IMG/VR virus record: IMGVR_UViG_3300034071_001414
Coordinates: 1-64,000 of that record
Reading direction: 5' to 3' (one strand)
DNA from: a virus
DNA length: 64,000 nucleotides
Part shown: in pieces, positions 13,705-30,400 of the stretch
Layout: every line of letters starts with the position of its first letter
How positions within the stretch are numbered: the stretch's first letter is position 1
Position numbers and translations under genes: made by a program
Notes under the pieces: generated by a model
Told to the model about the DNA's origin: nothing
What the model saw: the letters and a program-made list of their open reading frames with translations, nothing else
The model's database searches: none

Positions 13705-13738
13705 CTTGGATCCTCTAAAGTGTTCCAGTAATGTAAGC
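13705..13738 (+). promoter_or_regulatory. GATC promoter repeat, copy 1
   Basis: TTGGAT, 17-base spacer beginning CCTCTAAAGTGT, then TAATGT. It is the first of 16 copies and begins directly after the Dam stop. No start codon can be read from the element in the frame of the downstream gene, whose ATG is at 13749. Confidence 0.75.
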
Positions 13739-13748
13739 AACACTTCAA

Positions 13749-14162
13749 ATGGCAACTCGCTCACGAATCGGTCTTGAACTTGCAGACGGTTCTATTCTCT
13801 CCATCTACTGCCATTATGATGGTTATCCTGAGTTCAATGGTGCAAAACTTGTAGAAAACTTTAACTCCTACGAAAAAGCATCTGAACTGGTTGATCTTGG
13901 AGATATTTCTTGTCTTTGGACTAACGCTGGTTGGAATAATGAAACTCTCCCAGAAACTGGTCCTCTTCCTTACTCTCAGCGTGGTGATAATTGTCCTCCT
14001 CGCCTTGATGCTGACCTGTGTGAGTATCTTCTGCCTGATAATAGCGAAGAGTTTGCATATGTCTTCCGCAATGGTGAGTGGGTGTGCTATAATATGAATC
14101 AGTTTGATGATGCCAAACTGCCCGAAATTGTTGAAATCCCCTCTGCTGCTCTTGCTGTTTGA
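13749..14162 (+). CDS. conserved phage protein, MATRSRIG family (137 aa)
   Basis: The N-terminus (MATRSRIGLELADGSILSIY then CHYDGYPEFNG) is a recurrent signature of a small protein widespread in phages and some plasmids. It is soluble, acidic and beta-rich, with no catalytic residues assigned. Its ATG is 15 bases after the -10 of repeat copy 1, so the leader is very short and lacks a Shine-Dalgarno. Confidence 0.75.
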   Translation: MATRSRIGLELADGSILSIYCHYDGYPEFNGAKLVENFNSYEKASELVDLGDISCLWTNAGWNNETLPETGPLPYSQRGDNCPPRLDADLCEYLLPDNSEEFAYVFRNGEWVCYNMNQFDDAKLPEIVEIPSAALAV

Positions 14163-14165
14163 TAT

Positions 14166-14357
14166 ATGAAAACTTCTACTACTCTTGCTGCTGCCTTTGT
14201 TGTTATTGTCCTTGCTACTGCTGGACTTTTCTTTGAAGCGTGGTTACTTGGACTCATTCTGTCTTGGTTCAATGTATCGTTGACCTTCTGGCAGAACTTT
14301 GCTATCATTGCTCTTGCTAATCTGATTTTTAAAAATACTGGAGTTTCTTCTAAATGA
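14166..14357 (+). CDS. two-span membrane protein (63 aa)
   Basis: Almost entirely hydrophobic: residues 7-32 (LAAAFVVIVLATAGLFFEAW) and about 35-56 form two membrane helices with a short tail. It is followed in an overlap by another membrane protein, so a small membrane operon is likely. Function unknown. Confidence 0.65.
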   Translation: MKTSTTLAAAFVVIVLATAGLFFEAWLLGLILSWFNVSLTFWQNFAIIALANLIFKNTGVSSK

Positions 14358-14773
14358 ACAAACAAAACGGATTTATTGACCCCAGTGTTGCTGTTGTTGG
14401 TCTTGCTGGTGTAGTTATTATTTTTGGTCTTGCTTTTGGTCTTCCACAGTATGGCGTTTATACCAAATCTCTAAATGGTAAAGCGCAACTTATGGAGGCG
14501 GAGTACACACGTCAAACTGCCGTATTGGAAGCACAAGCAAAGAAAGATTCTGCACAACAACTTGCTGATGCTGAAGTGATTCGTGCTCAAGGTGTAGCAA
14601 AAGCGAACTCCATTATCGGAGATAGTCTAAAAGGTAATCCTGCTTATCTTCAGTACCTATGGATTACTCAAGGAGAAGAAAACACCAGTCGAACTGTTTA
14701 TATGGTTCCCAGTAATGGTGGCGCACCTGTACCTACTTTTGATATTCAACAAGCACCTGTTATCAAGAAATGA
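14354..14773 (+). CDS. membrane-anchored protein resembling the tail of SPFH/prohibitin proteins (139 aa)
   Basis: A transmembrane helix at residues 12-33 (VAVVGLAGVVIIFGLAFGLP) is followed by an Ala/Gln/Glu coiled coil and the segment RAQGVAKANSIIGDSL, then NPAYLQYLWITQG. This order matches the C-terminal coiled coil of prohibitin/HflC-like proteins, but the SPFH domain itself is missing. It could assemble on the membrane or interfere with host HflKC/FtsH control. That is inference. Confidence 0.65.
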   Translation: MNKQNGFIDPSVAVVGLAGVVIIFGLAFGLPQYGVYTKSLNGKAQLMEAEYTRQTAVLEAQAKKDSAQQLADAEVIRAQGVAKANSIIGDSLKGNPAYLQYLWITQGEENTSRTVYMVPSNGGAPVPTFDIQQAPVIKK

Positions 14774-14904
14774 CCAAAAAGCACATTGTCGCTGGATTGA
14801 TTGGTTTTGCAGTCATTCTTGGTTGGAATGTCTTTCTAATCCAGCGTGATGATAAGATGTATGATGCTTACTATCGTCAACAAGCAGTTCAACAACAAAA
14901 ATGA
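14770..14904 (+). CDS. small single-pass membrane protein (44 aa)
   Basis: ATGA overlaps at both ends. MTKKHIVAGLIGFAVILGWN gives a short basic N-terminus and one transmembrane helix. The C-terminus is Gln/Tyr-rich (YYRQQAVQQQK). Role unknown. Confidence 0.55.
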   Translation: MTKKHIVAGLIGFAVILGWNVFLIQRDDKMYDAYYRQQAVQQQK

Positions 14905-15017
14905 CACTCCCATTTGGTATTGTACTTTACTTGTTAATTACTGCACTTGTGTTAGGATTGATTACATACTATTTCAAAGTGATTAGACCTAATGATGAAA
15001 GACGATTTGACACCTGA
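14901..15017 (+). CDS. small membrane protein (38 aa)
   Basis: Overlaps the previous gene at ATGA. Residues 4-26 (PFGIVLYLLITALVLGLITY) form one membrane span and the tail is charged (RPNDERRFDT). The next gene begins inside it. Confidence 0.5.
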   Translation: MTLPFGIVLYLLITALVLGLITYYFKVIRPNDERRFDT

Positions 15018-15162
15018 AGAGAAAAAGATTATCTTTCATGCTGTCAGGTATTGGCAAATGCACAAAGCAGCATTGAACGGCAAGGAATATCAAACCTGTG
15101 AGAACATTCTAAATCGCTGGTTTGATGATGTCTACACTCAACGAAAGGAGCAACAACGATGA
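14995..15162 (+). CDS. small charged protein (55 aa)
   Basis: Two consecutive ATGs (14992, 14995) can start it. The product is helical and charged (MKDDLTPEEKKIIFHAVRYW) with KGKEYQT-like and RKEQQR tails. Overlaps on both sides support it. No family recognised. Confidence 0.55.
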   Translation: MKDDLTPEEKKIIFHAVRYWQMHKAALNGKEYQTCENILNRWFDDVYTQRKEQQR

Positions 15163-15290
15163 TTGAATACAACGAAGAACGCAAAGATCTGCAAATTGAT
15201 CGTAATGCTGATGACTTTTGTATGTGGGTAGAGGAGCAAGCAGCAAAACTGGAAATTACTTGCGACTATTATCTTGCGGAGTTTATGTGA
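15159..15290 (+). CDS. small acidic protein (43 aa)
   Basis: ATGA overlap with the upstream stop. The sequence is acidic with two cysteines (DDFCMWVEEQ and ITCDYYLAEFM). Short but flanked by overlapping genes on both sides. Confidence 0.5.
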   Translation: MIEYNEERKDLQIDRNADDFCMWVEEQAAKLEITCDYYLAEFM

Positions 15291-15361
15291 CATTCATCTT
15301 TGGATTTGCACTTGGAGTTCTTGCAACACTGGGAGTAGCACTTATTCTTGCTGCCGAATAA
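15287..15361 (+). CDS. membrane micropeptide (24 aa, GTG start)
   Basis: A GTG overlaps the previous TGA (GTGA) and the frame encodes an almost purely hydrophobic peptide starting MTFIFGFALGVLATLGVAL. This is one membrane helix with no room for anything else. The overlap pattern and composition are the only support. Such micropeptides are easily missed by gene callers. Confidence 0.45.
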   Translation: MTFIFGFALGVLATLGVALILAAE

Positions 15362-15420
15362 AACCCACTTGACGAAGACGACAACAACAACTAAAATAAA
15401 GAGGTAATTTACAACAGACG

Positions 15421-15651
15421 ATGAAGCATTTTTACATTGTTGACTACTGGGTTCCGTTTCCTTCTTCCGAATATGGTGGAGTAATCAATGTTATCGCAGA
15501 AAATGACATTGAATGTCACGATATTCTACGAGACTCAGATGATTATGATGCTAGGTATCACTCAAAGATTATGGAACGAGTAGTTGCTGCTCCTCGCTTC
15601 ACTCTTGTAGATGAAGAAGAGTCCCGTATTGTTGAATCCTTTACCACCTGA
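15421..15651 (+). CDS. small hypothetical protein (76 aa)
   Basis: Preceded by a 59-base gap with AGAGGTAA as a possible ribosome-binding site. The product begins beta-like (MKHFYIVDYWVPFPSSEYGG) and is acidic; it resembles small cyanophage proteins beginning with a similar strand. Function unknown. Confidence 0.6.
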   Translation: MKHFYIVDYWVPFPSSEYGGVINVIAENDIECHDILRDSDDYDARYHSKIMERVVAAPRFTLVDEEESRIVESFTT

Positions 15652-15653
15652 TT

Positions 15654-15821
15654 ATGACTCATCACGTTGCACACACAAACAAAATGCTTTTTGACTTGAA
15701 AGAACAGTATCAGGCACAAATTCAACGTCTGCAATCTAAAATTGATGATCAAGAGCAAGAGATTGCTAAACTCAAAACTATGATTACTCTTTTGTCTACA
15801 GAACGTGATTATGACTGCTGA
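15654..15821 (+). CDS. coiled-coil protein (55 aa)
   Basis: Residues 11-48 are a continuous heptad coil (MLFDLKEQYQAQIQRLQSKI onward). It starts two bases after the upstream stop and ends in a one-base overlap with the next ATG. Probably an oligomeric adaptor; role unknown. Confidence 0.6.
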   Translation: MTHHVAHTNKMLFDLKEQYQAQIQRLQSKIDDQEQEIAKLKTMITLLSTERDYDC

Positions 15822-16120
15822 TGAAACTCTCCATTGATTTGATACCTCAATTCAAGCATAAACCACCTGAAGGTTATTCTTATGAAGTTGAAGAGTTCAA
15901 GCGTAACGTGTTTTCTATTTGGTTGCGTTGTCACCGCCAGTTTGATTACAATAATGGAAAATCTACACGCACCATCTGGGGGTGGTACGACTACAAAAAG
16001 TGTAAGTTCTTTAGTCCTGTAAATAGTACCACAGTTGGCAAAGAAGTGAAGTTCAGTGATACTCGTTGCTGGACTTCTATGCCCATTAACTATCAAGGAT
16101 TGGAGGCATTTTTCGTATGA
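15821..16120 (+). CDS. hypothetical protein (99 aa)
   Basis: The protein is aromatic and basic with paired strands (EEFKRNVFSIWLRCHRQFDY, TRTIWGWYDYKKCKFF), suggesting a small beta-barrel. Two cysteines flank the strands. It overlaps genes on both sides. Family not recognised. Confidence 0.65.
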   Translation: MKLSIDLIPQFKHKPPEGYSYEVEEFKRNVFSIWLRCHRQFDYNNGKSTRTIWGWYDYKKCKFFSPVNSTTVGKEVKFSDTRCWTSMPINYQGLEAFFV

Positions 16121-16293
16121 TTTTCAGCGAAGGAACAGAAGTGATTTACAAAACTATCTCTGGAGTGGTAGCATTTGCCTCTGAGCAATCTATCTCAATT
16201 CTAGTCAGTGAGGGAAATCACAAATCACAAGATGTTCGCGTAGTTGTCTATCAATCTGATTTCAATCAAGTTGTTTTTGCAGATGGGAAATGA
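16117..16293 (+). CDS. small beta-rich protein (58 aa)
   Basis: ATGA overlap at the start and near-overlap at the end. The pattern GTEVIYKTISGVVAFASEQS then SISILVSEGNHKSQDVRVVV is that of a small SH3-like barrel. Such barrels often bind DNA, RNA or a protein partner. Role unknown. Confidence 0.6.
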   Translation: MIFSEGTEVIYKTISGVVAFASEQSISILVSEGNHKSQDVRVVVYQSDFNQVVFADGK

Positions 16294-16499
16294 AGAAGAA
16301 TAGCAACTGGTGGAGATGGTGGGCAAAGTCAATTGGAGAGAAAGCATCCAAATGCGATAAAGAAAGCGACACGGTTGCGGTCATTCGCACCGTGATTTTT
16401 GCTACTTACTTGATTACAAACTGTTTTATCATTTATGGTGTACTGAGAACTCATCACTTTCCAACACAACCTAAAGTTGTTAGATGTTCGATAAAATAA
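16290..16499 (+). CDS. membrane protein with Trp-rich N-terminus (69 aa)
   Basis: A basic aromatic start (MKKNSNWWRWWAKSIGEKAS) is followed by one transmembrane helix (VIRTVIFATYLITNCFIIYG, residues about 30-49) and a short basic tail. The TAA stop lies within an AATAAATA late promoter for the next gene. Confidence 0.6.
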   Translation: MKKNSNWWRWWAKSIGEKASKCDKESDTVAVIRTVIFATYLITNCFIIYGVLRTHHFPTQPKVVRCSIK

Positions 16500-16502
16500 A
16501 TA
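16495..16502 (+). promoter_or_regulatory. late promoter AATAAATA
   Basis: AATAAATA overlaps the TAA stop of the membrane protein and stands 20 bases before the internal-protein gene at 16522. It is one base from TATAAATA. It would place this virion-like gene under late control inside an otherwise early region. Confidence 0.6.
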
Positions 16503-16521
16503 TCTAAAAAGTATAAGTAAA

Positions 16522-16920
16522 ATGCTGACATTTAGAGAGTTTTATACTATTTGCGAAGGGAAAAAACCAAATGTTCACCCCTATGCAGTTCCTGGTACTT
16601 ATCAAGAAAAAGATGGTGTAAAGACATATACTCTCAAGAGAGATGATGCACCAAAGAGAGAACCAATCAAGTCTGCAAAGAAAATAACCAAAATGCTTGA
16701 TAAGCAGGGTGGAATTGGTGGTAAAGCAATCAAGAAAGCAAAGAAGATTGAAGAACAACATCCAATAATGCAACCTAATGAGTATAACAAGCAAATTGCG
16801 CGTCAATCTGTTCGTTGGAAGGGAATGCAGATCCGTCAGGCACACGGAGAAATGGAGCACGAAGCAGGAGCACAACTAGCAGCAAAGAAAGCAAGAATGA
16901 AAGCAATTATGAGTCGTTGA
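16522..16920 (+). CDS. basic protein with capsid-targeting-like N-terminus (132 aa)
   Basis: The first residues MLTFREFYTICEGKKP resemble the T4 internal-protein targeting sequence (MKTYQEFIAEA). YTICE|G fits the gp21-type cleavage rule of an aliphatic residue, any residue, Glu, then a small residue. The rest is Lys/Ala/Gln-rich and strongly basic, suiting a DNA-packaged protein. With a late promoter upstream, I infer an internal head protein injected with DNA. No enzymatic domain is seen. Confidence 0.65.
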   Translation: MLTFREFYTICEGKKPNVHPYAVPGTYQEKDGVKTYTLKRDDAPKREPIKSAKKITKMLDKQGGIGGKAIKKAKKIEEQHPIMQPNEYNKQIARQSVRWKGMQIRQAHGEMEHEAGAQLAAKKARMKAIMSR

Positions 16921-16926
16921 TACTTA

Positions 16927-16960
16927 CTTGGATCCTCTAAAGTGTTCTAGTAATGTAAGC
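16927..16960 (+). promoter_or_regulatory. GATC promoter repeat, copy 2
   Basis: TTGGAT, CCTCTAAAGTGTTCTAG spacer, TAATGT. The downstream ATG is at 16973 and no ATG lies in the element. Confidence 0.75.
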
Positions 16961-16972
16961 ACAAAACAAATT

Positions 16973-17125
16973 ATGGACCGTTTCGACGATATTCAAATTG
17001 AAGAGTTTTCTTCTTTTGATTTTGTTGAGGAAATGAATGAAGGTCTCTTTGATGAAGATGAAGAAGGTGAACAACCTTCAAAGTTTAACCTGAATGAGTA
17101 CATCAACGGCAATTATGATTATTGA
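16973..17125 (+). CDS. very acidic small protein (50 aa)
   Basis: The start ATG is 17 bases after the -10 of repeat copy 2. Composition is extreme in Asp/Glu (FDFVEEMNEGLFDEDEEGEQ). It may be a DNA mimic or a charged partner of a basic protein; this is speculative. It ends two bases before the next ATG. Confidence 0.55.
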   Translation: MDRFDDIQIEEFSSFDFVEEMNEGLFDEDEEGEQPSKFNLNEYINGNYDY

Positions 17126-17127
17126 TT

Positions 17128-17307
17128 ATGACTGCTGATACTTATACTTTTACTGGTGATGCTGTTACCTTCCTTGGTTTGGTTGGTGTTATCTCAGCGT
17201 TTTTTATTGTTGTTACTTCTTTTCGCAGGTTTTTCAACAGTCCTTATAACATTCGTATAACTCCTAAAGTTAATCAAAAAACCACTACTGAAACTACTGA
17301 ATCCTGA
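17128..17307 (+). CDS. single-pass membrane protein (59 aa)
   Basis: I use the ATG at 17128, just after the upstream stop. Residues about 11-33 (AVTFLGLVGVISAFFIVVTS) form a membrane helix followed by FRRFF and a Thr/Lys-rich tail. Function unknown. Confidence 0.6.
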   Translation: MTADTYTFTGDAVTFLGLVGVISAFFIVVTSFRRFFNSPYNIRITPKVNQKTTTETTES

Positions 17308-17311
17308 ACTA

Positions 17312-17530
17312 ATGACTCAAACTGTAAATGTTCTGCCTCATCTTAACGAACTGAAAGATGCTTGGCGTAAGCAAGATTTCAAATTCACTGCATCACAACA
17401 AGAGCAATATGATATTTTGATTGCTGCTCGTCGTGAGCGTGTTCATTACTTCTATGAGAACAATCTAGTGTTCAAAGGTTCTAAAGCAGCAGCAGATAAG
17501 GCACTTGGTCTACTTGAGGATGCTGACTGA
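17312..17530 (+). CDS. conserved-type small phage protein (72 aa)
   Basis: Helical and charged: LNELKDAWRKQDFKFTASQQ, then YDILIAARRERVHYFYEN and a C-terminal KAAADKALGLLEDAD helix. It resembles small cyanophage proteins. Its TGA stop overlaps a GATAAATA late-promoter-like box. Confidence 0.65.
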   Translation: MTQTVNVLPHLNELKDAWRKQDFKFTASQQEQYDILIAARRERVHYFYENNLVFKGSKAAADKALGLLEDAD

Positions 17531-17536
17531 TAAATA
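17529..17536 (+). promoter_or_regulatory. late promoter GATAAATA
   Basis: GATAAATA overlaps the TGA stop of the upstream gene and stands 25 bases before the second capsid-targeting-like gene. Both internal-protein candidates thus share an overlapping-stop late promoter. Confidence 0.55.
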
Positions 17537-17560
17537 ACTCAAAGTAGTTTTTAGATACAG

Positions 17561-18145
17561 ATGAAAACCTTTCAGGAGTTTATTGTCGAAGCATACGATA
17601 AGGAGGTTATGGGTTCTTCTCAAATTAGAAGAACTGGTGAAGGTGGACGTATCGGTGCGGATCGTCGTAAATCAACTCCTGAAAGGCGTAGGGTTAAGGC
17701 AGTTGGTGGTGGTAAAACTGAACCAGTTGCCTATAAAGATAGAAAGGATATTGGTACTCAAAGACAAGCATCCACAAGAGTTCAACAACCAACACAAGAA
17801 CGTGGAAGTGCTGATGTAAAAGCAAAGGCAGCAGAAGCAGCAAAAGAAGAAAGAAAGAAAGCAGCATTAGCAAGAATTGCTGCTAAGAAAGCAGGTGGAT
17901 CTGCACCAGCAGCATCTCAACCTAAAGCAAAGGAAGCATCTGCAACTGCAAGCAAACTTCTATCCAAAAAGAAAGAAGAAAAACCTGTAAGTCCTGATTA
18001 TAAACCAGCAAAAGCATCTGGTTTAAGCAGACAAGAAAGATTGAAAGTAACCAGACAAGGTGAAGCAAAACTGAGAGATTTGGTTCTTAAATCAACAGGC
18101 AAGACATCTGAAAAGCAATTAAAGCATCGCTACACTTCTCGCTGA
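17561..18145 (+). CDS. predicted internal head protein with T4-like targeting sequence (194 aa)
   Basis: The start MKTFQEFIVEAYDKE is almost the T4 IPIII targeting peptide (MKTYQEFIAEA), and IVE|A matches the gp21 cleavage consensus. The rest is a long Lys/Ala/Arg-rich helix (AKAAEAAKEERKKAALARIA, residues about 86-105) and basic disordered segments, as expected for a DNA-packaged, injected protein. A late promoter lies upstream and repeat copy 3 follows. The targeting role is strong by analogy; any activity after injection is unknown. Confidence 0.7.
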   Translation: MKTFQEFIVEAYDKEVMGSSQIRRTGEGGRIGADRRKSTPERRRVKAVGGGKTEPVAYKDRKDIGTQRQASTRVQQPTQERGSADVKAKAAEAAKEERKKAALARIAAKKAGGSAPAASQPKAKEASATASKLLSKKKEEKPVSPDYKPAKASGLSRQERLKVTRQGEAKLRDLVLKSTGKTSEKQLKHRYTSR

Positions 18146-18151
18146 TACCTA

Positions 18152-18185
18152 CTTGGATCCTCTAAAGTGTCTCAGTAGTATAAGC
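18152..18185 (+). promoter_or_regulatory. GATC promoter repeat, copy 3
   Basis: TTGGAT, spacer with CCTCTAAAGTGT, TAGTAT followed by AAGC; the ATG is lost here, so the gene must start at 18198. Confidence 0.75.
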
Positions 18186-18197
18186 ACTGAGCACTAA

Positions 18198-18431
18198 ATG
18201 ACCTTCACTGTTACTGACAAACCCCAAATCATTAACGGCATTGAGCACACTGTCACTGCAGTTAATGGTTTGGACCGTGTTGAAATCAATAACAAACTGC
18301 ATGACATTGGCGACCAAATTATGAAACTGCGGATGCAACAAGATGCACTCGTTCAGATGCGTAACCTGATTGACCGACAATGTGAAATCAGTGAAATGGA
18401 TTCCTTGTTTGATGAGATGTTTGGTAGTTGA
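18198..18431 (+). CDS. small helical protein (77 aa)
   Basis: The first 25 residues form strands (TFTVTDKPQIINGIEHTVTA) and the rest is helical with Met/Gln/Leu heptads (IGDQIMKLRMQQDALVQMRN), suggesting a coiled-coil dimer. Start is 17 bases after the repeat -10. Role unknown. Confidence 0.6.
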   Translation: MTFTVTDKPQIINGIEHTVTAVNGLDRVEINNKLHDIGDQIMKLRMQQDALVQMRNLIDRQCEISEMDSLFDEMFGS

Positions 18432-18443
18432 TATAGTGTCGCC

Positions 18444-18480
18444 AGAGCAGTCTAGATGCCTCTAGAAGTGCTCTATTTTA
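18444..18480 (+). terminator. hairpin terminator
   Basis: Nested stems AGAGCA/TGCTCT and TCTAGA/TCTAGA around TGCC, followed by ATTTTAGT. The T-run is short, so termination may be partial. The 77-base gap to the next gene holds no clear -10/-35 pair. Confidence 0.55.
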
Positions 18481-18508
18481 GTCTTTAGATACCAAACCAC
18501 TTGAACTG

Positions 18509-18700: not shown

Positions 18701-18706
18701 CTGTAA

Positions 18707-18740
18707 CTTGGATCCTCTAAAGTGTCCTTATAATATGATG
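18707..18740 (+). promoter_or_regulatory. GATC promoter repeat, copy 4
   Basis: TTGGAT, spacer CCTCTAAAGTGTCCTTA, TAATAT, the strongest -10 of the family. It overlaps three consecutive ATG codons of the helicase gene. Confidence 0.75.
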
Positions 18741-19982: not shown

Positions 19983-20016
19983 GTCTCACCCCAGTCTCAC
20001 TGAGACCTCAGTGTTC

Positions 20017-20041: not shown

Positions 20042-20113
20042 TTCAATTCTACTGCAGAGGTGTCATAGGTCATCCGCTGCAATCAAATCACCGATTTTTT
20101 AGAAAGTGTAACT

Positions 20114-20405: not shown

Positions 20406-21080
20406 ATGGTAAATCCATACAGATTTTATACTTATGCTTATTTGCGTGAGGATAGAACTCCTTATTATATTGGGAAGGGAACTAATAAAAGATTATATGT
20501 TAGGGGAAAAACAGATATAAAACCACCAAAAGATAAGTATAGAATAATCTATCTCAAACAAAATCTAACTGAAGAAGAAGCATTTAAACACGAAACTTAT
20601 ATGATTGCGGTATTCGGTAGAAAAGATTTAGGAACTGGTATTCTTCATAACAGAACTAATGGTGGTGATGGATCTTCGGGAGTGGTAGTAAGTGAGGAAA
20701 CTAAATTGAAAATGAGCAAAACAAGAAAAGGAAAATCTTTTAGTGGGGAGCATAAAAGGAAAATAAGTGAGGCAAAGAAACAACAAACAGAAGAAACGAG
20801 AAAGAAGATAAGTCAGGCAAATAGGGGCAAAAAACGTAGTGAAGAACAAAGGAAGTTAATGAGTGAAAGAGTAAAGGGGAGAAAACACTCTGAAGAAACT
20901 AAAAAGAAAATGAGTGAAAAAAGAAAGGGAAGAGTTTTTTCTGAAGAACATAAACAAAAAATAAGAGAAGCACTTTCTGGTATAAAACGTTCAGAAGAAA
21001 CTAAGAAAAAGATTAGTGAAGCATCAAAGGGAAGAACTCCTTGGAATAAAGGTGTATCAATGGGCAAACTTCCTTTGTGA
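20406..21080 (+). CDS. GIY-YIG homing endonuclease with NUMOD3 repeats (224 aa)
   Basis: The N-terminus FYTYAYLREDRTPYYIGKGT (about residues 7-26) is the GIY-YIG nuclease signature, and AFKHETYMIAVFGRKDLGTG supplies the downstream catalytic Glu region. Residues about 95-215 hold six or seven NUMOD3 repeats (SEETKKKISEASKGR and variants) that grip target DNA. It should cut one specific site and spread its own gene. Only the module order and NUMOD3 repeats link it to the HNH gene at 3982. Expression is expected late. Confidence 0.85.
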   Translation: MVNPYRFYTYAYLREDRTPYYIGKGTNKRLYVRGKTDIKPPKDKYRIIYLKQNLTEEEAFKHETYMIAVFGRKDLGTGILHNRTNGGDGSSGVVVSEETKLKMSKTRKGKSFSGEHKRKISEAKKQQTEETRKKISQANRGKKRSEEQRKLMSERVKGRKHSEETKKKMSEKRKGRVFSEEHKQKIREALSGIKRSEETKKKISEASKGRTPWNKGVSMGKLPL

Positions 21081-21086: not shown

Positions 21087-21120
21087 CTTGGATCGTCCAA
21101 AGTGTCCTTGTAGTATAACC
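21087..21120 (+). promoter_or_regulatory. GATC promoter repeat, copy 5
   Basis: TTGGATCGTCC variant, spacer ending CCTTG, TAGTAT then AACC. GATC is kept although the following bases differ; no ATG in the element. Confidence 0.75.
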
Positions 21121-21751: not shown

Positions 21752-22378
21752 ATGAATAAAATTATCCTTTTACGGGATGAAATAATTTCCGTATACAAAC
21801 AAACTTACTCTGTTATTCAAGTTTTAGAGCATTTTGGTTATTCTCGAAAGAGTGTAGAAGGAAGAAAACAAATAACTGACATTCTAAAAGAAGAAGGTAT
21901 ATTTGAGGGATTGACTGGTCCTAATGTCATAAAAATGAAGCATCAAAGGGCAAAGAAAACTATGCTCGAAAAATATGGTGTAGACAACTACTCTCACACT
22001 GAATGTGGATCTAAAAATCTACATAATCACAGACAAAAAAGTTATTTTCCTGTAATAGAAGAGTTTAGAAAATATCAGAGTGAAGTTAATAAAGAAACAA
22101 AAAAGGCAATGAGAAAGATAAAAGATAAACCAACTCATTGTGAATACCTTGGTATCAAGTTTGTAGATGATAAAATAGCAAATCCTAACGACCAATTAAA
22201 AAGGACAATAGACCATAAGAAGTCGGTTTATAATTGTTGGTTAGAGGGAATATCTGCAAAAGAAGCATCTTCGCCAGATAATCTTGCTTGGGTTTGTAGA
22301 TACATCAACAGTATAAAAGGAAATGCTGATTATGATGACATTAAACACATTTTTCCCAAAATAAAAGACAAATTGTGA
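21752..22378 (+). CDS. HNH-like homing endonuclease (208 aa)
   Basis: The N-terminal 60 residues form a helix-turn-helix-like region (VIQVLEHFGYSRKSVEGRKQ). A central AKKTMLEKYGVDNYSHTECG is typical of phage and plasmid endonucleases. The C-terminal part has KRTIDHKKSVYNCWLEG, then SSPDNLAWVCRYINSIKGN, a His..Asn..Asn/Lys arrangement like HNH/His-Me nucleases. Together with the shared leader and A+T-rich insertion I infer a homing endonuclease; the exact subclass is uncertain. Confidence 0.7.
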   Translation: MNKIILLRDEIISVYKQTYSVIQVLEHFGYSRKSVEGRKQITDILKEEGIFEGLTGPNVIKMKHQRAKKTMLEKYGVDNYSHTECGSKNLHNHRQKSYFPVIEEFRKYQSEVNKETKKAMRKIKDKPTHCEYLGIKFVDDKIANPNDQLKRTIDHKKSVYNCWLEGISAKEASSPDNLAWVCRYINSIKGNADYDDIKHIFPKIKDKL

Positions 22379-22413: not shown

Positions 22414-22447
22414 CTTGGATCCTCTAAAGTGTCCTTATAGTATGAGC
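22414..22447 (+). promoter_or_regulatory. GATC promoter repeat, copy 6
   Basis: TTGGAT, spacer CCTCTAAAGTGTCCTTA, TAGTAT. The ATG formed by TATG (22442) seems to be the only start for the ligase-like gene, so its mRNA may be leaderless or start upstream. Confidence 0.75.
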
Positions 22448-23359: not shown

Positions 23360-23393
23360 CTTGGATCCTCTAAAGTGTCCCAGTAGTATGAGA
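23360..23393 (+). promoter_or_regulatory. GATC promoter repeat, copy 7
   Basis: TTGGAT, spacer CCTCTAAAGTGTCCCAG, TAGTAT. It starts five bases after the ligase-like stop. Confidence 0.75.
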
Positions 23394-24028: not shown

Positions 24029-24062
24029 CTTGGATCCTCTAAAGTGTCCTAGTAGTATGAAC
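24029..24062 (+). promoter_or_regulatory. GATC promoter repeat, copy 8
   Basis: TTGGAT, spacer CCTCTAAAGTGTCCTAG, TAGTAT: the majority form of the family. Confidence 0.8.
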
Positions 24063-24296: not shown

Positions 24297-24298
24297 TT

Positions 24299-24745: not shown

Positions 24746-24751
24746 TAGAAA

Positions 24752-24785
24752 CTTGGATCGTCCAAATTGTCCCTATAGTATGAGC
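24752..24785 (+). promoter_or_regulatory. GATC promoter repeat, copy 9
   Basis: TTGGATCGTCC variant with AAATTGTCC in the spacer and TAGTAT. Close sibling of copy 10. Confidence 0.75.
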
Positions 24786-25556: not shown

Positions 25557-25558
25557 AA

Positions 25559-25592
25559 CTTGGATCGTCCAAATTGTCCCTATAGTGTAAGA
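25559..25592 (+). promoter_or_regulatory. GATC promoter repeat, copy 10
   Basis: TTGGATCGTCC variant, AAATTGTCC spacer, TAGTGT then AAGAC. It is the apparent promoter of the MutH-like gene. No ATG in the element. Confidence 0.75.
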
Positions 25593-25602
25593 CTCAACCA
25601 CA

Positions 25603-26193
25603 ATGCCAAAACTTACCACTCTGCAGGTATCTGCCAAACTGAAAGTAACTGATTTCAGTGCATTTGGCAAACCAGCAAAGAACAAAGGTGCTCGCGGGCA
25701 ACTGTTAGAAACTGCTCTGGGAGTTCCTAACTCATCTGACCTCAAAGATCTGGAGGATGGTGAGATTAAGACTTTCACTGTTGGTGAGAGCATCGCAGCA
25801 ACACAATTGAAGCACTGTTTGTCTGAAATCATCGAAGATTCTGTGTCATTTGATGAGAGTAAGGTTGGACAGAAACTACAACAAACTGTGTATGTTGGAT
25901 TCACACGTTCCAACGATTATGTGGGTTCTGCTATTCTGAATGAGGAAACTCACCCTGAACATTATCAGGAACTGCGTGAGGATTACGATTTCATTTGTAA
26001 CAGCATCCGCACACTTTTTGATGCTGGTAAACAACTTTCTACCATCACTGGACCTAACGGATTGCTGCAGATTCGCACAAAAGCATCTAAAACCAATGGT
26101 TGCTATGTACCTCTGACCTTTGCAGGTGTGACGCTTAAGGATAAGGGAATGGCATTCTATCTGTGTGGTCAATTTGGACGCAACCTGTTCTGA
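25603..26193 (+). CDS. MutH/Sau3AI-family endonuclease-like protein (196 aa)
   Basis: GARGQLLETALGV (E36) followed by SSDLKDL and then EDGEIKTFTV (E54, K56) reproduces the G..LLE..LG...D.....(G)ELK(T) active-site pattern of E. coli MutH and Sau3AI, both GATC-specific nucleases. It is slightly shorter than MutH (229 aa). The catalytic Asp would be D46 or D49. It may cut hemimethylated or unmethylated GATC and act in mismatch repair, host DNA attack or control of methylated phage DNA. The assignment is from motif spacing by eye. It starts 15 bases after repeat copy 10. Confidence 0.7.
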   Translation: MPKLTTLQVSAKLKVTDFSAFGKPAKNKGARGQLLETALGVPNSSDLKDLEDGEIKTFTVGESIAATQLKHCLSEIIEDSVSFDESKVGQKLQQTVYVGFTRSNDYVGSAILNEETHPEHYQELREDYDFICNSIRTLFDAGKQLSTITGPNGLLQIRTKASKTNGCYVPLTFAGVTLKDKGMAFYLCGQFGRNLF

Positions 26194-26200
26194 ACAGTAA

Positions 26201-26234
26201 CTTGGATCCTCTAAAGTGTCCTAGTAGTATGAAC
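26201..26234 (+). promoter_or_regulatory. GATC promoter repeat, copy 11
   Basis: Majority form: TTGGAT, CCTCTAAAGTGTCCTAG, TAGTAT. Begins seven bases after the MutH-like stop. Confidence 0.8.
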
Positions 26235-26411
26235 ACCAATCAAATCGACTTTCAAACCGACATCACTCCTACACTTTTGGAGTTTATGTGCAACAATCAC
26301 ACTGACTTGAATGACTGTGTAGACTTTGTTTGCTGTCTCTTTGATCTCAATGCAACTGATGAATTGATCGATCAGATTGCAGATGAGTTTGATGCTTTCT
26401 TCGGCAACTGA
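26229..26411 (+). CDS. very acidic small protein (60 aa)
   Basis: The only nearby start is the ATG inside copy 11. Asp-rich and Cys-containing (CNNHTDLNDCVDFVCCLFDL) with an acidic helical tail. Could mimic DNA or pair with a basic protein; function not known. Confidence 0.55.
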   Translation: MNTNQIDFQTDITPTLLEFMCNNHTDLNDCVDFVCCLFDLNATDELIDQIADEFDAFFGN

Positions 26412-26447
26412 TTCACACTAACTGTTTTCCCACTAAATTACACTGAA

Positions 26448-26630
26448 ATGACAAACAAAAACCCTTACGTTCAAACCCTAATTGAGATGGGTTATGATGA
26501 AGCAGACTGCCAAATGGTTGCTGATGCTGGAAGAGTAAATGTAACCTATCCGCGTAACATTTACGGTCGCATCTTTGAGACTGAAGCAGAGTACAAAGAT
26601 GCTCTTGCTGATTATATCAACGGTCTCTGA
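26448..26630 (+). CDS. small acidic protein (60 aa)
   Basis: Preceded by a 36-base gap (CACTAACTG...CACTGAA) with no obvious Shine-Dalgarno. Helical and acidic (YVQTLIEMGYDEADCQMVAD; EAEYKDALADYINGL). Unknown function. Confidence 0.6.
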   Translation: MTNKNPYVQTLIEMGYDEADCQMVADAGRVNVTYPRNIYGRIFETEAEYKDALADYINGL

Positions 26631-26647
26631 CTGATAAGCATCAGTAA

Positions 26648-26681
26648 CTTGGATCCTCTAAAGTGTCCTAGTAGTATGAAC
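26648..26681 (+). promoter_or_regulatory. GATC promoter repeat, copy 12
   Basis: Majority form. The gene can start at the ATG in the element (26676) or a later ATG following CCCAA. Confidence 0.8.
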
Positions 26682-26927
26682 GCTTCCCAAATGCAAAACA
26701 CTTACACTTCACCCGATACAAACAAAGTTTATACCATCATCGAATCGCAATCTGAGCGTGGTGCATGGGATGAAAATGGCAATTATGCTCCGAAAGTTGT
26801 CACTCAGTACAGCATCTATGATAATACTCAGATGGTACAATTTGCATTCGATGTAGATGGAATTGCCAAATCTGTGAGGCATTATGAAGGTTTCACTGAT
26901 GGTTGGACTTCCTCACGATTTGACTGA
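26676..26927 (+). CDS. hypothetical protein (83 aa)
   Basis: MNASQMQNTYTSPDTNKVYT then strands (YTIIESQSERGAWDENG; VTQYSIYDNTQMVQFAFDVD). A compact beta-sheet protein by eye. The N-terminus is ambiguous because of the repeat. Unknown function. Confidence 0.6.
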   Translation: MNASQMQNTYTSPDTNKVYTIIESQSERGAWDENGNYAPKVVTQYSIYDNTQMVQFAFDVDGIAKSVRHYEGFTDGWTSSRFD

Positions 26928-26933
26928 TAGTAA

Positions 26934-26967
26934 CTTGGATCCTCTAAAGTGTCCTAGTAGTATGAGC
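26934..26967 (+). promoter_or_regulatory. GATC promoter repeat, copy 13
   Basis: Majority form, seven bases after the upstream stop. Confidence 0.8.
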
Positions 26968-27303
26968 ACTAACCAAATGATTCAAGATAACATCGACCGC
27001 ATTCAAGATAGCATCAATCTCACGTCTAAACTTGCCCGAGACAATTATGATGCTCGCAATGGCATTATTGACCACATGAGAATTGATTGGTCTGAACATG
27101 CTCATCGTTTGACTTATATTGCAGGTGAGTGTTCTTATTACTTTCCTCTGCACAATCAGAACGGTGATAAGATTAACGAGGTAAAACTCTATTGTCGTTG
27201 CTCTCCTACTGTAAAAGGTGGAGTTCGCTTCTCTTATACTCTGAACGGTAAGACTATTGCTCGTTCTAAGATTGTAAATCGGATGATTGAATTGGGAGTC
27301 TGA
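26962..27303 (+). CDS. hypothetical protein (113 aa)
   Basis: N-terminal helix (MIQDNIDRIQDSINLTSKLA) then strands with two cysteines (ECSYYFPLHN; VKLYCRCSPTVKGGVRFSYT) and a helix KIVNRMIELGV. It can start at 26962 or at an ATG 15 bases later. Family not recognised. Confidence 0.6.
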   Translation: MSTNQMIQDNIDRIQDSINLTSKLARDNYDARNGIIDHMRIDWSEHAHRLTYIAGECSYYFPLHNQNGDKINEVKLYCRCSPTVKGGVRFSYTLNGKTIARSKIVNRMIELGV

Positions 27304-27456
27304 ATGTCACGCAAGACTCTAACATTCAAATCCCCAGATAGAATGAAAGTTGTCACATTAGTTTTCATTGTTGCACTTGTCTTTTCACCATCAGTAAGAC
27401 AAACAACCGCATCCATTCTTCATACCACTGCCGACATTCTTTCCCCACAACAATGA
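27304..27456 (+). CDS. small membrane or exported protein (50 aa)
   Basis: Adjacent to the upstream stop. A basic start and residues 14-30 (MKVVTLVFIVALVFSPS) give an uncleaved anchor or signal. Rest is Thr/Ser/Ile-rich. Unknown role; overlaps the next gene. Confidence 0.5.
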   Translation: MSRKTLTFKSPDRMKVVTLVFIVALVFSPSVRQTTASILHTTADILSPQQ

Positions 27457-27629
27457 AGCAAACTCTAATCGATTCGATGTCGTCTACACTTATGGAGCGT
27501 CTTGAGTTCTTTGTAAGTCAAGATGATTATGCCACCTCAGATGCACTTTACTCTGAGTTTATTGTGAATGGAGTAGATCCAGAAGATGGAGAGTATGAGT
27601 GGTTTTTTATGAAATCCCTTTGCTGTTAG
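27453..27629 (+). CDS. small acidic protein (58 aa)
   Basis: ATGA overlap. Contains an acidic, aromatic centre (ERLEFFVSQDDYATSDALYS) and ends in MKSLCC. Repeat copy 14 begins three bases after the stop. Confidence 0.55.
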   Translation: MKQTLIDSMSSTLMERLEFFVSQDDYATSDALYSEFIVNGVDPEDGEYEWFFMKSLCC

Positions 27630-27632
27630 AAA

Positions 27633-27666
27633 CTTGGATCCTCTAAAGTGTCCTAGTAGTATGAGC
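27633..27666 (+). promoter_or_regulatory. GATC promoter repeat, copy 14
   Basis: Majority form. Confidence 0.8.
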
Positions 27667-27897
27667 ACCAACGAAACCAAGAAAATGAATCTGTATATCA
27701 TCAACAACGTCCTGTCTGATTATACCTCTGGAATGGCAGTGATTGCTGCTGAATCTAAAGAACAGTGCCGTGAGTTCTTTATAGCAGAGTTCAGCGAATA
27801 TCATGCTGATGAGTTCGATAAGTGTGCAAAGTTCACTGTGATTGAAGGTGTGAATCATTCTGCTGGTATGGTAGACTATGTGTACGGTGGAGGTTAA
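27661..27897 (+). CDS. conserved-type small protein (78 aa)
   Basis: It can start at 27661 or at the ATG giving MNLYIINNVLSDYTSGM, a strand-rich start I associate with cyanophage small proteins. It continues SDYTSGMAVIAAESKEQCRE and an acidic helix. Unknown function. Confidence 0.65.
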   Translation: MSTNETKKMNLYIINNVLSDYTSGMAVIAAESKEQCREFFIAEFSEYHADEFDKCAKFTVIEGVNHSAGMVDYVYGGG

Positions 27898-27924
27898 TCA
27901 AACTTATTCCTTCAGTAACAGAAA

Positions 27925-27958
27925 CTAGGATCCTCTAAAGTGTCCTAGTAGTATAAGC
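27925..27958 (+). promoter_or_regulatory. GATC promoter repeat, copy 15 (degenerate -35)
   Basis: CTAGGAT replaces CTTGGAT, but GGATCC and the rest of the spacer are intact, followed by TAGTAT and AAGC. The changed -35 with preserved GATC shows which part is most constrained. Confidence 0.7.
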
Positions 27959-27974
27959 ACTCAACCCCAAACAA

Positions 27975-28289
27975 ATGACCCGCCTAATCGAACAACAAAT
28001 GAACATTGCAATCAATCAAGAGGTTGATTGGAAGAAGGATAACACTCAAGTGATTAACATTGAAGGCGTAAGTTTCGTCTATCTGTTTGACAATCTGATT
28101 GCAATGATTGGTGATACTTGGATGGAATTGTTTGATGGTGGTTATAAGTCAGTAACCACAAAGTCGCGTCTCAATGCTATTCTCCAAGCACACGGAAATG
28201 GAGAGTATGTGTATCAAAAGAACTTCAACTGGTTTGTATCAACCAAGGATGGAGAAGTTGCTTTCAACAATGGTATCAAACTGAACTAA
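27975..28289 (+). CDS. hypothetical protein (104 aa)
   Basis: ATG 21 bases after the -10. A helix (LIEQQMNIAINQEVDWKKDN) is followed by strands (GVSFVYLFDNLIAMIGDTWM) and aromatic YVYQKNFNWFVS. Unknown. Confidence 0.6.
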   Translation: MTRLIEQQMNIAINQEVDWKKDNTQVINIEGVSFVYLFDNLIAMIGDTWMELFDGGYKSVTTKSRLNAILQAHGNGEYVYQKNFNWFVSTKDGEVAFNNGIKLN

Positions 28290-28292
28290 GTT

Positions 28293-28496
28293 ATGAACAA
28301 TCAAGTCTTCGGAGTCTTTGCCCGTGATAATGATTATTACGCACAACTTGAACTTCACAAACTATTCTTCAACGAACAAGATGCAGAGGTTTATGCACAA
28401 CAACTTCGTGAAATGAATTATACTGATGATGATGCTAATGCTAATGATGAGATGATATATGAAGAAGTTGAAGTCTGCAAACTGAAGGTGAATTAA
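28293..28496 (+). CDS. small acidic protein (67 aa)
   Basis: Starts MNNQVFGVFARDNDYYAQLE; after a helical middle it has a DDDANANDE acidic run and a beta tail (EEVEVCKLKVN). Resembles small cyanophage acidic proteins. Unknown. Confidence 0.6.
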   Translation: MNNQVFGVFARDNDYYAQLELHKLFFNEQDAEVYAQQLREMNYTDDDANANDEMIYEEVEVCKLKVN

Positions 28497-28499
28497 CTG

Positions 28500-28637
28500 A
28501 TGAAAAAGTATATTTTCCAACACTGCAATAGTAACAAGATTAAGACCATACTTGCAAGGTCAGAGTATAAAGCAACGACTCAAAACTTTGGCAATCTTGC
28601 TGGTTACAAGTTCGTTCAATCATTCTCTCTTAACTGA
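28500..28637 (+). CDS. small basic protein (45 aa)
   Basis: The ATG is three bases after the upstream stop. Lys/Asn/Ser-rich (YIFQHCNSNKIKTILARSEY), ending FVQSFSLN. Overlaps the next ATG. Confidence 0.5.
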   Translation: MKKYIFQHCNSNKIKTILARSEYKATTQNFGNLAGYKFVQSFSLN

Positions 28638-28813
28638 TGACTAACGAACAAAAGATTGATGCACTCGTTGAACTTCTCAATGACGTAATGCACACTCTGA
28701 ATATGAAACAGTATTGTATTGATGATGCAACTGAATCTCATCAATGTGAGGTAGAAGCAGACAACTATCACCAACAAATGCTGAACATTCTTCACTCTCA
28801 AGAAAACAACTAA
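28637..28813 (+). CDS. small helical protein (58 aa)
   Basis: One-base overlap with the previous stop. Helical (EQKIDALVELLNDVMHTLNM) with two central Cys/His pairs (YCIDD, HQCEVE) that could bind metal. Unknown. Confidence 0.55.
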   Translation: MTNEQKIDALVELLNDVMHTLNMKQYCIDDATESHQCEVEADNYHQQMLNILHSQENN

Positions 28814-28945
28814 ATGACATTCACGATTCGTTATTTTACTCCCTATCAACAAGTCTGGAGAACGCAATCATTCTCTACACTTGATGAAGCAAAACGTATG
28901 GTTGAGTTTTATCGTTCTTGTGGTAGTCCTGCAGAGTTAGTATAA
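28814..28945 (+). CDS. small basic protein (43 aa)
   Basis: Directly follows the previous TAA. MTFTIRYFTPYQQVWRTQSF then a helix (TLDEAKRMVEFYRSCG). The 92-base gap after it holds no gene and leads to a terminator. Confidence 0.55.
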   Translation: MTFTIRYFTPYQQVWRTQSFSTLDEAKRMVEFYRSCGSPAELV

Positions 28946-29037
28946 TCATAAGAGGAAAGGAGTTTGCCTCTATTAAGTAAAGAAAGTGACTTCCGTAGAG
29001 TATAGATAATTCAACTAATTGGTGGATGGGTGTATAG

Positions 29038-29068
29038 AGAGAGGGACTGGTTATCCCTCTCTTTTTTT
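29038..29068 (+). terminator. strong intrinsic terminator
   Basis: AGAGAGGGA pairs with TCCCTCTCT around CTGGTTA, followed by seven T. It ends the + strand operon before the oppositely oriented homing gene. Confidence 0.85.
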
Positions 29069-29074
29069 ATGCTT

Positions 29075-29614
29075 TTATGGATGAGGTAAAGTATTCATTA
29101 CCTTACGCAATCCGTATTGGTTGATATATTGTTCTAATGCACCTTCAATTATACTATTTGTGAACTCATAAGAGTTAGGAACTGGTAATCCTTTACGATG
29201 AGAAGCAGCGTGAACTTCTTTAATCTTATTCGTTACATAATTATCCAGAACAAATCCCTTAGTTTGTGATAAATGTTCCATATTTTGTTTTCTACTTATC
29301 CACTCAAGATTCTCAATTCTGTTATCACATTGGTTGCGATTGATATGATTAACTTCCAGTGTGAAATCGTCACAGGGTAAGTATGCCATAGCAACTAACC
29401 TATGAACATACAAATTACGCTTGTTTCCCTTGTCATCAGATAGTCTAACGAACAAATAGTTGCCCCTTTTCTTTGCCCATCCTGGACGTAGTTTCTTTAC
29501 CTTGTTATACTTGAAAGACCAAACATTGCCATTTACATCTATAGCATAATCACCAAACTTCTCTAAACCTTTGATTTCATTCAGGTTCTTAAGTCTAACT
29601 GTTGGGACTTCCAT
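29075..29614 (-). CDS. HNH homing endonuclease with NUMOD4 domain (179 aa)
   Basis: Residues about 14-50 (IKGLEKFGDYAIDVNGNVWS) match the NUMOD4 DNA-binding motif and 88-112 (EVNHINRNQCDNRIENLEWI) are the HNH core with His, Asn and final Asn. The only clear minus-strand gene in the window, so a likely separate insertion. It should cut a specific DNA site and be copied into it. A 14-bp hairpin lies five bases upstream of its ATG. Confidence 0.85.
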   Translation of the reverse strand: MEVPTVRLKNLNEIKGLEKFGDYAIDVNGNVWSFKYNKVKKLRPGWAKKRGNYLFVRLSDDKGNKRNLYVHRLVAMAYLPCDDFTLEVNHINRNQCDNRIENLEWISRKQNMEHLSQTKGFVLDNYVTNKIKEVHAASHRKGLPVPNSYEFTNSIIEGALEQYINQYGLRKVMNTLPHP

Positions 29615-29619
29615 TTCAT

Positions 29620-29655
29620 AGTATTTTCTACTAAATCTATGTAGTAGAAAATACT
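29620..29655. promoter_or_regulatory. 14-bp perfect hairpin before the minus-strand HEG
   Basis: AGTATTTTCTACTA pairs with TAGTAGAAAATACT around an 8-base loop. Read on the minus strand its base is five nucleotides before the endonuclease ATG, so it could hide the ribosome-binding zone. On the + strand a TTTTT run follows, so it could also be a terminator. No TATAAATA is present in it. Confidence 0.6.
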
Positions 29656-29929
29656 TTTTAGAGAGTGGATAATGTATGATTAAATTATAGTGAGTAAATG
29701 ATAAAAAGGTATAATAGTTGTGTAATCTCTCTGTGTGCTTATAAATGTGCTGAGGTCTTGTTAGCTAAGACAGCATAACATAAGGACCGCACTTTTGTCA
29801 ACTCCGGGGTCACAAAATCCTCACAATCCCCTGCCAAAATGTCACACCCCGAGCATAAATACCCCCAACACCCTTGACATTAACCCCACAGCATCTTATA
29901 GTAGTTCCATAACACCAAGGAGAACACTT
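29656..29929. other. intergenic region with hairpins and promoter
   Basis: No gene seen. It holds a GTCTT/AAGAC hairpin near 29757, late-promoter-like ATAAAT boxes near 29741 and 29855, a C-rich stretch (29810-29895), and a near-consensus promoter at 29874. It separates the minus-strand HEG from the next + strand gene. Confidence 0.5.
29874..29902 (+). promoter_or_regulatory. near-consensus sigma70 promoter
   Basis: TTGACA (29874-29879), 17 bases, TATAGT (29897-29902), with an AAGGAG ribosome-binding site downstream. The best promoter of the region and unrelated to the GATC repeat. Confidence 0.85.
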
Positions 29930-30103
29930 ATGTCGGTTGCATATCAACAAGCACAGAAGCAGCGTTATAGGGTCACTCTGGATTTGGCAGTGTTCGGTGA
30001 CTTCGATCCACATCAAATCGACTGGGAGCGGTTATTTAAGTTGGAACCTGCTGAACACTGTGAGGCATATGTTGAGGACTTAAATACACCTGATAGTTGG
30101 TGA
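29930..30103 (+). CDS. conserved-type early phage protein (57 aa)
   Basis: MSVAYQQAQKQRYRVTLDLA then FGDFDPHQIDWERLFKLEP is a start and body I associate with a short early protein found across T4-like cyanophages. It has both a strong promoter and a strong AAGGAG, unlike most genes here. Its role is unknown, but immediate early expression is likely. Confidence 0.75.
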   Translation: MSVAYQQAQKQRYRVTLDLAVFGDFDPHQIDWERLFKLEPAEHCEAYVEDLNTPDSW

Positions 30104-30137
30104 GTTGGTATCATTTTATACCAAAAGTAGGGGTTTT

Positions 30138-30186
30138 ATTTTGTTAACATAAAGCATACATATTAGGTCCTTTATGTTAACAAAAT
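30138..30186 (+). promoter_or_regulatory. 17-bp perfect inverted repeat covering a start codon
   Basis: ATTTTGTTAACATAAAG (30138-30154) pairs perfectly with CTTTATGTTAACAAAAT (30170-30186) around a 15-base loop. The A and T of the next gene's ATG are in the right arm. It may act as a translation block in longer transcripts or as a dyad operator (GTTAAC core). A weaker TTGGTAT/ATACCAA hairpin precedes it. Confidence 0.7.
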
Positions 30187-30364
30187 GAGAACTCTAAAAT
30201 ATAGTCATTTGGGTGAAATGGTCATCATAAGAGTAGCACAGAAAACGACCAAAGTGCTACCTTACCTGCAAGACCTTATGCAACAATTAGAGGAGAACGG
30301 TAGGGATAGTGATGAGGTGATACTGCAGGTCCTCGGAGAACTTGAAGAACGCTTGAGTAACTGA
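30185..30364 (+). CDS. small helical protein (59 aa)
   Basis: The ATG is inside the 17-bp stem; an internal ATG at 30218 is an alternative. Basic N-terminus, then acidic helix (DLMQQLEENGRDSDEVILQV). Stop is followed directly by repeat copy 16. Unknown function, but its start looks structurally controlled. Confidence 0.6.
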   Translation: MRTLKYSHLGEMVIIRVAQKTTKVLPYLQDLMQQLEENGRDSDEVILQVLGELEERLSN

Positions 30365-30366
30365 AA

Positions 30367-30400
30367 CTTGGATCCTCTAAAGTGTCCTAGTAGTATGAGC
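30367..30400 (+). promoter_or_regulatory. GATC promoter repeat, copy 16
   Basis: Majority form, the last copy, 2.4 kb from the previous one and beyond the minus-strand HEG. Confidence 0.8.

Follow-up and report, generated by a model that had tools for sequence, protein, structure and literature searches.

A promoter-like repeat with a genome-specific module, and a candidate capsid-borne cognate factor, in T4-like cyanophages

The repeat and its setting

The window analysed here, a stretch of 64,000 nucleotides (positions 1 to 64,000 of IMG/VR virus record IMGVR_UViG_3300034071_001414), belongs to a freshwater T4-like cyanophage (Kyanoviridae). It encodes a tail sheath stabilizer, head closure proteins and giant open reading frames (ORFs) of the baseplate region, and the cultured phages closest to it are members of the Kyanoviridae such as S-WAM1, S-CREM1 and S-RIM8, in which the matching region of small ORFs is located 5' of the gp25 and gp6 baseplate genes. 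The early-gene region of the window holds sixteen copies of a promoter-like element, the third of which adjoins a gene, ORF 17561-18145, whose product we consider the candidate cognate factor. We propose that the element may form early promoters, and that this protein may be carried in the capsid and activate them.

The pattern CTTGGAT-N17-TAGTAT has 11 exact matches in the window, all on the plus strand, against a mean of 0.02 in shuffled sequence. Scanning with a 30-base consensus, at a threshold of at least 23 of 30 matches, yields 16 plus-strand copies spanning 13705-30396, and the next-best score anywhere is 19/30. An ORF starts directly 3' of each copy (16/16), which bears out the sequence-only reading of this DNA in its claim of sixteen plus-strand repeats, each ahead of a gene. 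A search with the core pattern found no further copies in the remaining 34.5 kb of the record (98.5 kb in total). The copies are:

13705-13734, plus strand: copy 1; module CTTGGATCCTCT; core ends in TAATGT; no TATG
16927-16956, plus strand: copy 2; TAATGT; no TATG
18152-18181, plus strand: copy 3; adjoins the candidate factor gene 17561-18145 at its stop codon; no TATG
18707-18736, plus strand: copy 4; TAATAT; 5' of a helicase gene
21087-21116, plus strand: copy 5; module variant CTTGGATCGTCC; adjoins the end of a GIY-YIG homing endonuclease gene; no TATG
22414-22443, plus strand: copy 6; 5' of an HLEHPED-type gene (phrog_455)
23360-23389, plus strand: copy 7; gene start is the TATG
24029-24058, plus strand: copy 8; TATG is the sole start
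24752-24781, plus strand: copy 9; CGTCC variant
25559-25588, plus strand: copy 10; CGTCC variant; TAGTGT; no TATG
26201-26230, plus strand: copy 11
26648-26677, plus strand: copy 12
26934-26963, plus strand: copy 13
27633-27662, plus strand: copy 14; S-WAM1 and S-CREM1 orthologues start at the second ATG
27925-27954, plus strand: copy 15; CTAGGAT variant; no TATG
30367-30396, plus strand: copy 16

With bases numbered so that the -10-like hexamer occupies bases 24-29, the aligned window copies are conserved between about base -2 and base +35. A coding role, already doubted on first inspection, is ruled out by stops and frame changes between copies. Nor is the repeat a simple tandem duplication, since the flanks of the copies are unlike and the element is found in many other phages.

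A shared core and a genome-specific module

Scans of IMG/VR collected 658 copies from 147 loci, and information per position was computed over 78 contig groups (522 copies). The 3' half, AAAGTGTCC followed by TARTRT and then RAGCAC, is common to most phages of the family, with bases 12-31 conserved throughout; T24, A25 and T29 reach 0.96-0.99, as expected of a -10 hexamer. The 5' 12 bases (bases 0-11), which we call the module and which include the supposed -35 box, behave otherwise. Within a genome, bases from about -1 to 11 carry 1.0-1.6 bits against a small-sample ceiling of about 1.63, with positions 0-6 at roughly 1.4-1.6 bits; across the family, bases 0, 1, 2, 4, 5 and 6 mostly fall to 0.03-0.7 bits, and base 7 is an invariant C. 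Modules of different genes in one genome differ by 0.093 and those of the same gene in different genomes by 0.517, the level of random pairs, whereas the corresponding values for the core are 0.138 and 0.127. Because it is uniform across the genes of a genome and divergent at the same gene between genomes, the module is a property of the genome and not of the gene. The modules seen include CTTGGATCCTCT (window), ACTGGGCCCCTG, TCTGGGGCCTTG, ACTGAGCCACTT, TTAGTAACCTCT, TTACTCACCTCT, TAGCTCACCTCT, GGGGGGACGTGC and GGGGGGTCGCCT (S-SM2).

The sequence-only reading took the element for a sigma70-type promoter with a -35 box in CTTGGAT. Its promoter-like form, its restriction to one strand and its position before early-region genes stand, and in three complete element-bearing isolates all copies lie inside the early region, oriented with the genes. 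The -35 box does not: TTGGAT is confined to the freshwater group, bases 1-6 are wholly different in other genomes, and the family comparison has no TTGACA-like hexamer at 16-18 bp. Since bases 0-6 vary by genome and are uniform inside each, TTGGAT is no general -35 box. The related idea, that a regulator reads the conserved spacer, survives insofar as the conserved part must be read; the likeliest specific site is the 5' module rather than the core.

One might still regard these as ordinary sigma70 early promoters made uniform by recent copying or gene conversion alone, with any associated protein co-varying through linkage. TARTRT is -10-like, and in the genome of the window the TTGGAT-17-TAGTAT spacing fits. 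The module is nevertheless kept at 18-31% third-position divergence. One locus (L009) has the module of the window in 10/10 copies despite 31% divergence at third codon positions of shared genes, and another (L070), at 12.5% third-position divergence, has CGTCC in 6/6 copies; because the module is kept in the first and changed in the second, its uniformity is more than simple recent copying. Linkage is further opposed by the fact that a single gene, ORF 17561-18145, tracks the element. We consider this explanation improbable, though it deserves more credit than the two that turn on the embedded start codon.

That start codon, the ATG at bases 28-30, is present in 288 of 575 unique copies. Of the 177 such copies that have a second ATG further downstream, 158 keep both codons in one frame (158:19), and in copies without the embedded ATG the corresponding frame is found in 121 of 253 (121:132; Fisher p = 3e-20, with a median p = 0.001 for one copy per locus). 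About 105 of the 575 copies offer no plausible start other than TATG, for example at MKNTHLEHPED, TVRF and SEIYSY genes, and bases 31-42 are almost devoid of ATG, the next starts occurring from base 43 onward. The embedded ATG thus often appears to be a true start codon. Its loss from several copies had been read as an argument against a coding role, and it is indeed lost from six of the 16 window copies; elsewhere it is often a likely start. Since the in-frame TATG would serve as a start, messages that cover base 28 should exist, and, because TATG is the only start in about 105 copies, transcription beginning seven bases after TAGTAT cannot be the sole source of message.

These observations lend something to an RNA-level role, in which the repeats would be part of polycistronic messages and govern translation from the AUG inside them or from the next one: TATG is used as a start in many copies and kept in frame, and elements adjoin the stop codon with which the gene before them ends. 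Against this, the element itself contains no start codon in half of the copies, orthologous genes in other phages have clear promoters instead, and the only hairpin possible by inspection, a GGA/TCC pairing, is lost in other modules such as TTACTCACC, so that an RNA hairpin was rejected and we think an RNA-level element quite unlikely. Promoters of a T7-type single-subunit RNA polymerase, starting at base 26 in a CACTATAG-like core and giving near-leaderless messages, would also account for the embedded ATG, and the core of S-B05 reads CCACTATAG. The TA at bases 22-23 is poorly kept, however, with no conservation over the 78 contig groups, and a search for PF00940 that detected the P-SSP7 control had no hit in three complete element-bearing genomes. 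With its cognate polymerase missing, this last explanation is largely refuted, and we give it hardly any weight.

A gene that tracks the element

The gene beside copy 3 and its putative promoter are placed as follows:

17530-17536, plus strand: late-promoter-like ATAAATA, 31 nt 5' of the candidate factor gene
17561-18145, plus strand: candidate cognate factor gene, 194 aa; capsid-targeting-like N-terminus, basic middle, covarying C-terminal helix

The 286 genes of SynMITS9220M01 were checked against the window's own record and ten further complete isolates. Just one of them was found in all element-bearing genomes (S-SM2, S-B05 and the own record) and in none of the eight element-free ones. 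This single gene corresponds to ORF 17561-18145, and it is present in many IMG/VR loci. A profile search of whole records detected it in five of six element-bearing isolates (SynMITS9220M01, S-SM2, S-B05, RN05-S and RB11-B), and all 11 element-free phages were negative; we return to the sixth isolate below.

Several features suggest a protein that is made late and packaged. T4 internal proteins enter the prohead by means of a sequence of about 10 aa, which the head protease afterwards cuts off (PMC7697877), and the N-terminus of the candidate factor, MKTFQEFIVEA in the window, matches the MKTYQEFIAEA of T4 IPII and IPIII (from NC_000866); it is a capsid-targeting-like sequence of the T4 type, nearly identical to theirs. 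Residues 1-14 give a weak match to the internal head protein family phrog_2667 (E 0.05), and IxE/LxE-like sites are present. The late-promoter motif [ACT]TAAATA stands between -45 and -20 of the start in 45/48 homologues, mostly at -29 to -33, and in 2/558 genes behind elements, an arrangement that resembles the late expression of the T4 internal proteins. An element lies directly 3' of the gene in 39/48 homologues. The middle of the protein is basic and probably disordered.

A second ORF of this kind, at 16522-16920 on the plus strand just 5' of copy 2, has a capsid-targeting-like start (MLTFREFYTICEGKK) and an ATAAATA at 16496, and probably encodes another internal head protein inside the early region.

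The C-terminus of the candidate factor co-varies with the module. In 53 loci, the rank Mantel correlation between module distances and distances of protein parts was 0.51 for the C-terminus (p = 0.0005) and 0.17 for the N-terminal half; the partial correlations were 0.49 for the C-terminus given the N-terminus and 0.03 for the reverse. Neighbouring control genes gave 0.07-0.33, and the C-terminal correlation remained at 0.45-0.83 given any of them. The association is concentrated on residues 151-194 and peaks at 161-167, in the C-terminal helix, where the eight residues that follow 'ER' go with particular modules: L(K/H)VTR(Q/K)GE with CTTGGATC, KALYKKGE with GGGGGGACG, KA(V/L)TKKGE with GGGGGGTCG (one locus, L164, is an exception, with KALTKKGE and GGGGGGACG), M(S/K)QQRKGE with TTAGTAACC and KK(I/M)VR(T/A)GK with ACTGGGCCC.

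The same relationship is seen in an independent set of loci fetched by the protein alone, the best 80 of 500 IMG/VR stretches that encode the factor. In 75 of these the C-terminus is complete, and every one of the 75 has elements on the strand of the gene, with a mean of 5.6 hits, as against 0.04 on the opposite strand (3/75 loci). Once identical C-termini were removed, 45 new cases remained, some of them on contigs that overlap or resemble those of the first set, and for these, predicting the module from the nearest C-terminus of the first set gives 1.24 mismatches in 9 (permutation p = 0.0002), compared with 4.16/9 for the N-terminal part and 4.74/9 by chance. Two additional records, traced through the protein alone, obey the rule: AG-345-O18 pairs KALTKKGE with GGGGGGTCG, and P-TIM68 has the C-terminus MTRAERMSVVRKGE and 13 copies of the element, most with GTTAGTTACCTCT. 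P-TIM68 keeps the module and its 12-bp distance to TAATGT and differs in the core (AAATTGA); its TAATGT is followed by AATCAAGGA and then, about 25 nt on, by an ATG, as expected for a transcription start near bases 34-36.

A candidate capsid-borne activator and its alternatives

Overall, we believe the most attractive explanation, to which we assign a probability of about 0.6, is that the elements are early promoters in which a -10 box is combined with a genome-specific site for an activator packaged in the capsid and injected. TARTRT would be the -10 box, bases 0-11 would be a phage-specific activator site that replaces the -35 box and ends 12 bp 5' of the -10 box, and the shared core AAAGTGTCC would separate the two. 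The activator, the product of ORF 17561-18145, would be made late, taken into the prohead through its T4-type capsid-targeting sequence, cleaved, and injected along with the DNA, whereupon its C-terminal helix would bind the module, so that from the very start of infection host RNA polymerase would be drawn to the phage's own early genes. We infer from sequence that the protein binds DNA, that it is packaged and injected, that it activates rather than represses, and where transcription begins.

We propose activator dependence because there is no constant -35 box and because T4 middle promoters are likewise built with a site 12 bp from a -10 box. In T4, 12 +/- 1 bp separate the -10 box from the MotA box (PMC2988021), and here the module ends at base 11 and the -10 box begins at base 24, so that in both a phage-specific site 12 bp 5' of a sigma70-like -10 box takes the place of the -35 box. 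The modules differ in sequence from the MotA box TGCTT, and, unlike the MotA site, the cyanophage site is uniform inside a genome and changes from one related phage to the next; moreover, the elements serve the early region and the candidate factor is apparently packaged. According to an earlier report, cyanophages have no T4-like middle promoters and are missing motA and/or asiA (PMC5780444).

The main rival retains the same promoter and the same protein and makes the protein a repressor: host polymerase alone would fire the early genes, and the factor, bound to the module, would shut them off late or on a superinfecting genome. The -35 region, where operators classically lie, is overlapped by the module; genome-specific operators resemble immunity systems; and a late promoter motif precedes the factor gene. 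A repressor would not need to be packaged, yet the capsid-targeting-like N-terminus is conserved, and the modules of most genomes contain no recognisable -35 box, a better fit to dependence on an activator. Repression is therefore in our estimation unlikely, if less so than any other alternative.

Several observations weigh against the activator model. S-B43 (MN018232.1; L452-L454) has at least six elements and no factor gene detectable by profile search; its helicase neighbourhood is collinear with that of S-B05 only from the helicase onward, and replacement, loss or an assembly problem are candidate causes. Like S-B43, the core AAAGTGTCC and the embedded starts fall outside what the model accounts for. 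In particular, a transcription start 6-7 nt after the -10 box would cut off the approximately 105 genes that appear to depend on TATG, unless they are read from upstream promoters, which is plausible because the same-strand array is dense. AlphaFold, run on an input from which two named-phage rows were left out, is confident solely for the C-terminal helix (residues 157-179, pLDDT about 90), and Pfam, PHROG, PDB-sequence and fold searches returned no relative beyond the N-terminal PHROG hint. Minority modules also occur: CGTCC beside CCTCT in the window (21087, 24752 and 25559), a TTACTCACC copy in L222, GGGGGGACG beside CAGGGAGCC in L187 and ACTGAAGCC beside TTAGTTACC in L196, perhaps in recently imported genes. 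Finally, sample sizes are inflated because the loci are metagenomic fragments that are partly related.

For the fuller version of the activator model, in which recognition helix and promoter module co-diversify such that the capsid-borne, sequence-specific activator of a lineage switches on only that lineage's early genes, we see even odds. Element-bearing viruses may thus carry in a gene switch of their own that is matched to the genome they deliver. Herpesvirus VP16 is a virion protein that switches on immediate-early genes; virion-borne activation of the kind proposed here would be a functional analogy only, with no relationship. In T4 the head protein Alt is injected, modifies the polymerase and acts on early transcription, and IPI inhibits restriction enzymes (PMC2988021, PMC3012670, PMC7697877). 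Such anti-restriction and polymerase-modifying roles differ from the sequence-specific promoter recognition envisaged here. We know of no T4 internal protein that recognises its own promoters by sequence, and a limited, non-exhaustive literature search found no earlier description of the pairing between module and protein.

Two other early promoter systems invite comparison. Doron and colleagues (ISME J, 2016) reportedly found a novel, non-host-like early regulatory element in the T4-like cyanophages Syn9 and P-TIM40, which likewise stands 5' of early genes. Sequence and profile searches of both phages found neither the repeat nor the factor, which rules out identity. These element-free phages have repeated early motifs of their own that differ from the element described here, GTGACAGTTGGATTAGTGTCACA in P-TIM40 (L255) and TCGTGTATTCTATAAGAGTCAAAGG in Syn9 (L246/L247). 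PeSL cassettes are early promoters that recur at the borders of genes, in regions where genes are intensely shuffled. The element shares that placement; unlike a PeSL, it has a genome-specific module and a covarying protein, and inspection of the aligned copies showed no conserved stem-loop or terminator, nor did a terminator scan place one at the elements, so that identity is again ruled out. These promoter/stem-loop cassettes of T4-type phages are cited in PMC4503421.

If the activator model holds, it would explain how a large group of cyanophages takes over transcription at infection without MotA/AsiA or a polymerase of its own. The 500 IMG/VR stretches that encode the protein would then be a natural library of short peptides covarying with DNA words of about 9 bp, and ready material for working out how proteins recognise DNA. 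The reason why early promoters would be private to a lineage, whether in relation to co-infection or to gene exchange, is a question that could be addressed in the cultured phages S-SM2, SynMITS9220M01 and P-TIM68.

The region contains further features of its own. Orthologous genes in S-WAM1 and the other close relatives carry other promoters, partly classical TTGACA-17-AATACT with a short leader, and the window itself has a second promoter class at 29874-29902, a classical TTGACA-17-TATAGT followed by a leader with an AAGGAG Shine-Dalgarno sequence and an ORF at 29931. A GIY-YIG homing endonuclease gene (20406-21080) ends just 5' of copy 5, an endonuclease VII-like gene (21752-22378) ends just 5' of copy 6, and an HNH endonuclease-like gene lies among the elements on the minus strand (29075-29614); L009 has a duplicated tail of the corresponding endonuclease. 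An origin of the modules as homing-endonuclease or restriction sites was considered, since such genes adjoin copies 5 and 6, and set aside as unlikely, since the element is widespread without them. Between small genes of the window from 13 to 30 kb, a stop-start junction, TGATTATGACT, recurs, for example near 17125, 23546 and 24296.

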